A stretch of DNA of 64,000 bases from Rhodospirillaceae bacterium (GTDB lineage: Bacteria > Pseudomonadota > Alphaproteobacteria > CACIAM-22H2): positions 62,001 to 126,000 of the forward strand of contig JALHMR010000004.1 in assembly GCA_022843945.1 (NCBI GenBank), in the 5' to 3' direction. A program made the translations under genes and the position numbers. The notes below the pieces were generated by a model. That model was not told where the DNA came from. It ran no database searches and saw only the letters and a list, made by a program, of their open reading frames with translations. Within the stretch, counting starts at the first letter, position 1. Every line of letters begins with the position of its first letter. Below are positions 4,289 through 45,505 of the stretch, in pieces.

Positions 4289-4433
4289 GTCACCCCGGGC
4301 AAGGCGCGCGTCCTCACGTGCCGCGATCCGGGGTCCATCGTGCCGCTGGAGAGATGGACCCCGGCGTGCTGGGTCCCGCGCGCGGAGGGTTGGTGTGGCG
4401 GCTACGCGCGGGGAGAATTGGCGCCGGGGTGAC
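4289..4433. repeat. Dispersed palindromic repeat, family A copy A1 (with nested element D1)
   Basis: Element bounded by GTCACCCC and GGGGTGAC, an exact 8-base inverted repeat, containing the GATCCGGGGTCCATCGTG core shared with copies near 17.3, 39.9 and 45.4 kb. This copy is longer because it holds a second module at 4386-4410 whose 25 bases recur exactly, in inverse orientation, at 10971-10995. It fills most of the space between the GlcG-like gene and the Bug receptor. Confidence 0.8.
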
Positions 4434-8793: not shown

Positions 8794-8950
8794 AGCAATG
8801 TTCGTTCTGATCGAATCACCCCCACCCCAACCCTCCCCCATCAAGGGGGAGGGGGAAGAAAGAAGCGCCACTCCAAAGCCCTCCCCCCTTGTGGGGGAGG
8901 GTAGGGTGGGGGGTGCGCCACCGCGCCAATCTGATCGGAACGCACTCTAG
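8790..8950. repeat. Long imperfect inverted repeat downstream of amidase
   Basis: A roughly 155-base hairpin-forming element. Its outer arms are CTCTAGAGCAATGTTCGTTC and, inverted on the right, CCTAGAGTGCGTTCC; both arms also carry a CTGATCG-type stretch. Inner arms are CCCCACCCCAACCCTCCCCC against GGGGGAGGGTAGGGTGGGGGG. It overlaps the amidase stop and lies between convergent genes, so it could act as a bidirectional transcript end. It resembles dispersed intergenic elements common in alphaproteobacterial genomes (family-level recollection). Confidence 0.7.
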
Positions 8951-10654: not shown

Positions 10655-11130
10655 CGCACGTCCTCCGAAGCATGGCGGTTGGACCCCTGAACGCGCTGCG
10701 TGATGCGCCTGGCTCCCGCGCCAGGCGATCAGGGGGCGAGCGATAGAACGGCGGGAGCCCGGGGAAGTCCGCTTTTGTCTCGGGGCCTCGCCATCTTCCG
10801 GCGGTCGGCGCCGGAAGGTGTCTGCCGCATGGCAGCTGATCCTCGCACAGGCCCGCCGGGTATACTGTGCAATACGGGACACTCGTTCGGTGCAGGGCAA
10901 GGGTCCTGCGAGCGTTCACTTGGCGGCCCGCCGGGCGCCGGCCCACCTCACCCGCCCAGTCTTTTCCTGGCGCGCGTAGCCGCCACACCAACCCTACGCG
11001 CGCCAGAATACTAGTGGCGCTCGCACCCGCGTCGCGCGCCTGGCTCCAGTGGAGCTTTCGCAGCCCACGCGCCCCCCGAAGACGGGCGGAGAGGGTAATT
11101 TGCCGCGCCTATCCCCGGCGATTCGGGGGA
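10655..11130. other. Gene-free gap with repeat fragments
   Basis: About 475 bases between the leftward receiver gene and the rightward DUF983 gene. It holds the hairpin element D2 (10969-11004) and a degenerate family-B fragment at about 11055-11098 that shares CGGGCGGAGAGGGTAA exactly with 19881-19896. The rest should contain the divergent promoters, but no convincing -35/-10 pair could be identified by eye. No small gene is supported. Confidence 0.6.
10969..11004. repeat. Hairpin repeat, family D copy D2
   Basis: A perfect 11-base inverted repeat, GGCGCGCGTAG and CTACGCGCGCC, around a 14-base loop. Bases 10971-10995 are the exact reverse complement of 4386-4410, which lies inside repeat A1, so this is a dispersed element present in two contexts. 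Confidence 0.8.
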
Positions 11131-13620: not shown

Positions 13621-13680
13621 CATGAAGCCCCTCTCCCGCATCGCGGGAGAGGGTGGCCGCGAAGCGGCCGGGTGAGGGTC
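13621..13680. repeat. Inverted-repeat flank B1 of the DUF559 remnant
   Basis: A hairpin element running CATGAAGCCCCTCTCCCGC, a short loop, GCGGGAGAGGG, then GGGTGAGGGTC. It appears again, inverted and slightly diverged, at 14009-14070 on the other side of the DUF559 pseudogene. The small internal palindrome GGCCGCGAAGCGGCC is replaced by GCGAGCGCTAGCGAGC-like sequence in the other copy. Confidence 0.85.
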
Positions 13681-13718
13681 TATGCGATCAGCCCCCGTAC
13701 GGCGTTATAGTATAAAGC

Positions 13719-14029
13719 GTGGGCGATCAGGCGCGTACCCTCCGCAAAAGCAGTACTGATGCCGAACGCCGGCTATGGTCGGCGCTACGCGATCGCCAGC
13801 ACCCGATTGGTCGCTTTGTCGTCGACTTCGCCTGCACCCGGCATCGGTTGACGTCGAAGCGGATGGCGGTCAGCACAACGGGAATGTTGCCGACGTTCAG
13901 CGAACGGCGTGGCTCGAACGCCAAGGTTGGCGCGTGCTCCGCTTCTGGAACAATGACATCCTCTCCAATACGGAGGGAGTCATCACCACGATTGTGACGG
14001 TGCTCGAAGACCCTCACCCGGCTCGCTAG
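13719..14029 (+). pseudogene. DUF559 (Vsr-like endonuclease domain) gene, frameshifted
   Basis: The first frame, beginning at a GTG at 13719, encodes ARTLRKSSTDAERRLWSALR and then HPIGRFVVDFACTRHRL; after a shift near 13846 the second frame encodes VDVEADGGQH, RTAWLERQGWRVLRFWNNDI and LSNTEGVITTIV. These are the ordered motifs of DUF559 proteins, whose fold relates to the very-short-patch-repair and PD-(D/E)XK nucleases. Two lesions are visible: the usual dozen residues between ALR and HPIG (a GxxFRRQ-type segment) are shortened, and a one- or two-base indel breaks the frame before the VxVDGGQH motif. The 3' end, including the stop, lies inside the right flanking repeat. A sequencing error could explain the shift but not the shortened segment. 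Confidence 0.85.
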
Positions 14030-14070
14030 CGCTCGCCACCCTCTCCCGCAGTGCGGGAGAGGGGCTCATG
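14009..14070. repeat. Inverted-repeat flank B2 of the DUF559 remnant
   Basis: Starts GACCCTCACCCGGC and ends GGGAGAGGGGCTCATG, the reverse complement of the left flank B1 apart from a few changes. It provides the stop codon and last few codons of the DUF559 frame and ends right at the stop of the sorbosone-dehydrogenase-like gene. Confidence 0.85.
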
Positions 14071-17034: not shown

Positions 17035-17410
17035 GCCTCCATGCGCAGTGCAGCGTCAGCCGCGCGCCTGAGACCATTGACCAACGATGAAACCAGCGGG
17101 TGCAGAGACTTCCGACACCCACGTTGGACACGTTCGGCGCGGCCTTGCACCAAAGAGTCTACGCCTGTGCCGTTTCCCTGTCCGTGACTTTTTCGGGCAG
17201 GGGATGCCGCGATGCTGCGCTGCACTAACAGGTTGATGCAGCGAGGCTCTGTCGGGGGCCGCTACCTTTCCCCTCTGCTCTCAAATGTCACCCCGGACAA
17301 GGCGCTCTTCCGAGAGCGCCGCGATCCGGGGTCCATGGTGCAAGCGGCCCGATGGATCCCGGACCGCGCTCGCTTCGCTCGCTTGTCCGGGATGACGGTG
17401 ATTACGGGCC
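17035..17410. other. Intergenic gap containing repeat A2
   Basis: About 375 bases between the DUF2189 gene and the TauD-family stop, both leftward. Bases 17287-17396 are repeat A2. The remaining part (17035-17286) must hold the DUF2189 promoter and shows no gene-like frame or clear regulatory motif. Confidence 0.6.
17287..17396. repeat. Dispersed palindromic repeat, family A copy A2
   Basis: Opens GTCACCCCGGACAAGGC and closes GCTTGTCCGGGATGAC, forming a long imperfect hairpin, with the shared core GATCCGGGGTCCATGG. It sits 14 bases downstream of the TauD-family stop. Confidence 0.82.
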
Positions 17411-39856: not shown

Positions 39857-39953
39857 GTCACACCGGACGAGCGCAGCGAGATCCGGGGTCCATCGTGACG
39901 ATAGAACCATGGATGCCGGATCGCGCGGCGAAGCGCCGCTTGTCCGGCATGAC
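39857..39953. repeat. Dispersed palindromic repeat, family A copy A3
   Basis: Opens GTCACACCGGACGAGCG and closes CGCTTGTCCGGCATGAC, with the shared GATCCGGGGTCCATCGTG core. It lies seven bases after the tgt stop. Confidence 0.82.
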
Positions 39954-45416: not shown

Positions 45417-45505
45417 GTCACCCCCGCGAAAGCGGGGGTCCATCGTGCCGCTGAACCATGGACCCCGGATCGCGTGTCGCTAACGCGTCACTTGTCCGGG
45501 GTGAC
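45417..45505. repeat. Dispersed palindromic repeat, family A copy A4
   Basis: Opens GTCACCCCCGCGAAAGCGGGGG, which itself is a tight hairpin (CCCCCGC-GAAA-type loop), carries GTCCATCGTGCCGCTGAACC, and closes CTTGTCCGGGGTGAC. The inner hairpin plus the overall palindrome could stop transcripts from both the liv operon and the convergent reductase gene. Confidence 0.82.

Follow-up and report, generated by a model that had tools for sequence, protein, structure and literature searches.

A broken DUF559 gene in the window (the whole stretch of 64,000 nucleotides of Rhodospirillaceae DNA analysed here) lies between inverted copies of a triplex motif (TM), and the locus is probably a decayed transposon-like module that was moved or copied by the DUF559 protein. 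Modules of this kind recur across Pseudomonadota and sporadically beyond, and their ends bracket DUF559 and not other genes. The repeat (boxC/PIT) and the DUF559 family were each known separately; what appears to be new is the association of both. In E. coli, repeats of the boxC/PIT type have been recognised since the 1990s, and their origin and function are unresolved. DUF559 is the first candidate enzyme for this widespread orphan repeat and is present in E. coli K-12 as YcjD, where the proposal can be tested. A possible role is also indicated for a common domain of unknown function. No association with repeats was mentioned in the titles and abstracts found on DUF559, most subscription papers being outside the search.

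The unit in the window and its repeat

The unit is 441 bp long and is delimited by an outer and an inner pair of inverted arms (Table 1). Each arm has the architecture CCCTCTCCC-loop-GGGAGAGGG-spacer-GGGTGAGGG, with the right arm being the left arm in inverse order; the arms start with AGCCCCTCTCCC and have GGGTGAGGG on the inner side. The inverted-flank score of the unit is 76, compared with a maximum of 34 and a 99th percentile of 29 among 1000 random 310-bp intervals from the same window. The initial annotation had described the two flanks as inverted copies of one element, which agrees with the complementarity of the arms, and its flank boundaries were correct within about 5 nt. Neither the window region nor four related loci had a match in Rfam.

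Table 1. Position of the repeat arms, the DUF559 pseudogene and other repeats in the window
Feature	Position	Strand	Remark
Whole unit, inverted TM arms around decayed DUF559 gene	13626-14066	+	Co-terminal paralogue L001 (G000:C58), 86% identical
Outer inverted arms	13626-13657 with 14035-14066		32 nt, 94% complementary
Inner inverted arms	13667-13681 with 14008-14022		15 nt, 100% complementary
Left-arm hairpin, CCCTCTCCCGC-ATC-GCGGGAGAGGG	13629-13653	+	Perfect 11-bp stem
Left-arm third strand, GGGTGAGGG	13670-13678	+	Mirror of purine stem 9/9; 16-nt spacer 13654-13669
DUF559 pseudogene, first half (Pfam positions 5-55)	13719-13850	+	PF04480 E 4.7e-9; 27-nt gap relative to L001
DUF559 pseudogene, second half, other frame (Pfam positions 55-109)	13847-14029	+	PF04480 E 6.6e-16; frame break at about 13851
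Frame holding the first half	13719-13997		
Frame holding the second half	13775-14029		Stop TAG 14027-14029
Right-arm third strand, GGGTGAGGG on the - strand	14011-14019	-	Mirror of purine stem 9/9; 19-nt spacer 14020-14038
Right-arm hairpin, CCCTCTCCCGC-ACT-GCGGGAGAGGG	14039-14063	-	
Second TM pair, other variant, gene-less	8817-8915	.	Stem CCCTCCCCC, third strand GGGTGGGGG; opposite orientation
Palindromes of about 45 bp	4322-4364, 17320-17362, 39877-39919, 45427-45469		
Inverted copies of a 33-nt sequence	4378-4410, 10971-11003		97% complementary

The two halves of the gene belong to PF04480 with 36.5 and 58.6 bits (curated cut-off 20.6 bits), while intact paralogues in the same genome score 146 and 140 bits. 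Decay of this copy, with shortening and a frameshift near 13846, had been inferred from the window alone, and comparison with the intact paralogue L001 supports it, with the gap located in the domain and the frame break a few nucleotides further on. It had also been stated that the DUF559 frame terminates in the right repeat copy, and the stop codon of the second frame does fall in the right-arm spacer.

Three DUF559 genes were found in the genome, all of them between inverted hairpin repeats. The homology between the window copy and L001 (contig 58) extends over 436 aligned positions, beginning with AGCCCC and ending just past GGGGCT. These are the outer ends of the arms, and this co-terminal homology therefore defines the boundaries of the unit. 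In the third copy (L002) the DUF559 is more distantly related and the ends are of a different variant. Strict hairpins of the form CCCTCTCCCN{2,12}GGGAGAGGG were found 15 times genome-wide, and four of these are the arms of the window copy and L001.

Judged by its sequence, the repeat in the window is a variant of boxC/PIT/TMECO but not a strict TMECO. The stem CCCTCTCCC-loop-GGGAGAGGG and the third strand GGGTGAGGG are common to both, and the known repeat is likewise intergenic, forms inverted A+B pairs in E. coli and is variable between strains (PMC4666352). A triplex motif requires a Y-rich/R-rich hairpin followed by a mirror purine third strand, which is fulfilled by 9/9 mirror triads in both window arms. 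The second loop differs, in that it has 16-19 nt with its own small hairpin in the window and 3 nt in the TMECO definition (PMC4666352), which the spacers of 16 and 19 nt do not meet. Holder et al. found 3610 copies of the TMECO form in 262 proteobacterial genomes and reported no associated mobility gene, for which DUF559 is the candidate here; they also cite Hoyne et al. 2000 (PMC4666352). The motif forms an intrastrand triplex in vitro according to Holder et al. 2015, and a stable triplex in vivo is unsupported in E. coli (PMC4666352).

Asymmetric stems allow a mirror repeat of the stem to be told apart from a direct one. The third strand fitted the mirror repeat better in 91 cases and the direct repeat better in 38, with 53 ties; for example, GGGGGAAGG is paired with the mirror third strand GGATGGGGG. 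A mirror-type third strand is what a triplex constraint would predict, although the test was crude and related sequences are not independent.

The second TM pair in the window (GGGGGAGGG stem, GGGTGGGGG third strand) has its third strands on the outside, opposite to the window unit. Pairs with outward third strands were also seen at three other loci in the same genome (L006, L012 and L014) and once in E. coli (TMECO 17+18). A second dispersed family of imperfect palindromes, GATCCGGGGTCCATCGTG...ATGGACCCCGG, is unrelated to the TM in sequence and has four copies in the 64 kb. The two inverted copies of the 33-nt sequence are 6.6 kb apart.

DUF559 genes between inverted ends

Inverted arms, defined by a score of at least 31 in loci with both flanks, were found at 64 of 76 named DUF559 loci, compared with 3 of 764 random intervals of the same size in the same loci. 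Other ORFs in the named loci had inverted flanks in 4 cases out of 461, and none of 21 Vsr genes was bracketed. One of the originally 77 named loci (L067) was dropped as an N-run artefact. The 80-locus set had been gathered by similarity to a mostly bracketed alignment, and for this reason a sample of the best locus per genome was added. This sample, from 150 Pseudomonadota and not selected by likeness to the window element, had 21 bracketed loci out of 27 (50/71 when further copies from multi-copy genomes were added). A preference of DUF559 for such flanks had been suggested as a check on the initial annotation, and both samples confirm it. Recognisable inverted flanks are absent at about one sixth of the named DUF559 loci and at a larger share in the other samples.

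The bracketed named loci span alpha-, beta-, gamma- and deltaproteobacterial lineages; others, few in number, are on MAG contigs assigned to Chloroflexota, Planctomycetes and Omnitrophota, for which misbinning is possible. The median unit length of the bracketed loci is 470 bp, and in 52 of the 64 the stop of the DUF559 frame is located in the right arm or past it. Flanks of this kind might be ordinary bidirectional terminators, or mark insertion hot spots, around all genes, since the hairpins of TMs lie between genes and inserts recur at some junctions (odhB-lpd). Such a coincidence is refuted by the other ORFs, random intervals and Vsr genes unless these controls are biased; the third strand moreover mirrors the stem across variants, and PIT elements are stated to lack terminator activity (cited in PMC4666352). 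It is hardly credible as an explanation.

Carriage of the repeat follows the gene at the genome level as well. At least three TM hairpins were present in 26 of 31 genomes with DUF559 and in 8 of 119 without it (150 Pseudomonadota, Fisher 2e-17), so that genomes lacking DUF559 mostly lack the repeat, as would be expected if the initial idea was right. With families collapsed the figures are 16/18 and 3/30, and when DUF559 was permuted within families the observed overlap was never reached in 5000 trials (p 2e-4). The hairpin was present in 11 of 15 genomes with DUF559 in an earlier set of 61 relatives. Y1 transposases (RAYT/IS200) had no association with TM carriage (OR 0.64) and Vsr a weak one (OR 3.0). 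There are exceptions of both kinds: G411 with 110 hairpins and G329 with 57 are rich in TMs without a DUF559 match, and G202, G175, G376 and G289 have DUF559 without the TM variant searched for. A lost enzyme, an incomplete assembly or another mobiliser is possible in G411 and G329, the latter of which also had 11 control matches.

Some loci have been altered by other elements. In Legionella anisa (L113, 5828-6490) a DUF559 gene between TM-like ends lies inside nearly identical terminal inverted repeats of 147 bp, starting with TTAGGTAATGTCCC, and looks like a module nested in a MITE. The left flank of DUF559 in Azospirillum argentinense (L168) is replaced at the TM by an apparent insertion-sequence end when compared with other strains. 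Matches to DUF559 on plasmids were mostly on large replicons and did not yield a clean empty site, with Azospirillum strains having one locus in common, and only three weak matches were found in 50,697 phage records.

The enzyme and its possible action

The AlphaFold model of DUF559 (pLDDT 86.7) has its top structural match in 3HRL, a DUF559 crystal structure. The next match is the EDxHD homing endonuclease I-Bth0305I (PDB 3R3P; Z 12.0, rmsd 1.8 over 87 residues, 24% identity), which is thereby the closest solved catalytic fold outside the DUF559 family. A profile match to the same structure (E 0.0034) also places DUF559 in the EDxHD catalytic fold. Vsr matches the model with Z 9-10, and the kinship to Vsr/PD-(D/E)XK nucleases that had been stated at the outset is borne out by the fold. 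Membership of the Vsr sequence family was rejected, as a DUF559 relative gave only a weak match to TIGR00632 (17.9 bits against a cut-off of 97.85) and Vsr genes are not bracketed. The residues E13, E53, D55 and H59 are invariant in DUF559 (E53 and D55 numbered as in L100), and these acidic and histidine residues would fit an active nuclease, for which catalysis has not been shown. Unlike EDxHD homing endonucleases, DUF559 is not intron-borne, has about 105 aa without a separate DNA-binding region, and its empty sites need not carry a target.

E. coli YcjD, which ends in a TM-like hairpin, N. gonorrhoeae NGO0050 (3HRL) and Caulobacter VsrA (CCNA_02930) belong to the same Pfam family. VsrA has been studied as a mismatch-type endonuclease and is tied to the DNA-damage response in cells without cytosine methylase (PMC12907096). 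Together with the Vsr fold and the TM-rich genomes without a DUF559 match, this could mean that DUF559 processes or repairs hairpin or triplex DNA in a Vsr-like way and has been caught by repeats that the host or other enzymes spread. Such a role as passenger or caretaker is rather improbable, because TM carriage tracks DUF559 and not Y1 (18/22 genomes with DUF559 against 3/58 without it among those lacking Y1), because the Vsr family itself is never bracketed, and because enzyme and ends covary within genomes. The correlation between DUF559 protein identity and arm similarity was rho 0.36, compared with 0.16 +/- 0.10 after permutation (5 of 300 permutations), which would be expected either of cognate pairs or of co-inherited units. 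No anti-phage defence match was obtained with PADLOC.

We favour the reading in which DUF559 acts on the ends of its own module. The module would consist of the gene for a small PD-(D/E)XK (Vsr/EDxHD-like) nuclease between two inverted ends, each with a hairpin and a mirror-repeat third strand, which together could form an intrastrand triplex within one strand. DUF559 would recognise the cognate ends in their folded state, probably single-stranded at replication forks, and nick or cut them, whereby the module is moved or copied; gene-less pairs might be moved or copied by DUF559 in trans. Copies would decay as they lose the nuclease and as recombination between the two palindromes leaves a single hairpin. 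Recognition and cutting of the ends by DUF559 to move or copy the unit is inferred, as catalysis, movement, intermediates and target choice have not been shown; the initial annotation had likewise called the spread of the repeats by DUF559 an inference.

RAYTs are thought to move or copy REPINs, and the initial annotation had compared the locus with RAYT modules. This holds as an analogy, because REP/REPIN-RAYT (TnpA-REP) systems also have small palindromic ends in inverted pairs, a repeat-flanked enzyme gene and many intergenic gene-less pairs with decaying copies. The comparison goes no further, as TM carriage has no association with Y1 transposases. DUF559 is a PD-(D/E)XK (Vsr-like) and not a HUH tyrosine enzyme, and the TM ends have a triplex third strand. 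Strict RAYT membership was rejected, since Y1_Tnp has no match in this genome and no GTAG tag was seen in the window arms. The CGTC REPs (PMC3733652), with a CGTC-type tag and a stem of 8-9 bp beginning with AT, were rejected too because the window stems start with CCC.

If DUF559 acts on the ends, it would be a second, unrelated type of enzyme maintaining REPIN-like repeats, intrastrand triplex DNA would gain a rare candidate biological role, and there would be a bearing on the reported strain instability around boxC/PIT motifs. In the widest form of the proposal, a whole class of mobile elements would have DUF559 as its founding enzyme: a single Vsr-like PD-(D/E)XK nuclease would recognise intrastrand-triplex ends and move its own gene together with genome-wide gene-less elements, including E. 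coli boxC/PIT; for this the arguments are evenly balanced.

Gene-less pairs and occupied or empty sites

Gene-less, REPIN-like pairs in the genome G036 are about 107-118 bp long and have two distinct ends, always arranged in the same way: the spacer has 3 nt in LE and is a long hairpin in RE. Two DUF559 copies in this genome (L021 and L044) have the LE and RE of the gene-less pairs, and the gene reads from RE to LE. The genome G304 has eight gene-less pairs of about 190 bp, all of one architecture. Mapping of empty sites in sister strains had been proposed initially, and occupied and empty sites were indeed found, both for modules and pairs in comparisons of sister species and for gene-less pairs in comparisons of E. 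coli strains. In G061, a sister species of G036, the element is missing from six aligned G036 sites, of which one has a decayed hairpin, and two others have unrelated sequence. The DUF559 site of G036 between ruvC and ruvA is occupied by a solo hairpin in G061.

At the odhB-lpd junction, several lineages of Sphingomonadaceae have a DUF559 unit, with TM variants that differ, and the junction is empty in other lineages. Among congeners it is filled in G258 and empty in G164, where the two genes overlap and no TM is present. Gain or loss of the unit and its gene-less relatives has been demonstrated at defined sites, while the direction of change at most sites has not. Target-site duplications were looked for at the window, L001, G036 and E. 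coli copies with nothing consistent, and no consensus target was found. Varied small inserts were seen at the odhB-lpd junction (L170-L199) in many Sphingomonadaceae lineages, with TM-flanked DUF559 in at least six, and it is a possible insertion hot spot.

In E. coli K-12 the ycjD gene (DUF559) ends inside a TM-like hairpin. TMECO 9 follows at 168 bp downstream, and no TM was found upstream. Of 5426 complete E. coli genomes, 3365 have the ycjD region. The median number of matching places was 14 in genomes with ycjD and 2 in those without (40 E. coli genomes listed at even steps); this link tracks lineage and is merely compatible with the model.

The gene-less pairs in E. coli are composed of type A and type B motifs (PMC4666352) and have outer tags in common. 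Four alleles were found between hrpB and mrcB: the full pair, a solo hairpin with the left loop (L346), a solo hairpin with the right loop (L347) and a fully empty site (L348). The solo hairpins retain the outer tags of both sides and are for this reason best read as deletions between two palindromes.

These alleles are central when considering the main rival, a homing-type copying. DUF559 would then be a free-standing homing endonuclease that cuts TM hairpins or module-less alleles, after which recombination copies the module in without a transposition reaction. This is suggested by the fold of I-Bth0305I and by two sites where the sister species has a solo or decayed hairpin and G036 has a module or pair. 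However, several empty sites have no TM at all (G164 at odhB-lpd, L348 in E. coli), which means that a pre-existing TM is not needed, and solo hairpins with both outer tags and either the left or the right loop fit internal deletion and not an uninvaded target. Gene-less pairs at many unrelated sites would also require action in trans. The TM-free empty sites and solo-hairpin alleles count against the strict form of homing. Homing-type copying as a whole appears unlikely, and movement or copying of the module by DUF559 acting on its ends remains the preferred reading.

The fabI-sapF interval (L128-L130) was considered as a clean empty site in E. coli but was rejected, since a TetR/RND efflux operon is located there in both ycjD-less strains inspected. 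In an E2348/69 strain the interval that has ycjD in K-12 is occupied by a TetR/RND/MFS efflux cluster together with an IS4-like element, and the same TetR/RND genes adjoin fabI in an O157:H7 strain. The junction of the efflux cluster on the fabI side is about 40 nt from TMECO 9.
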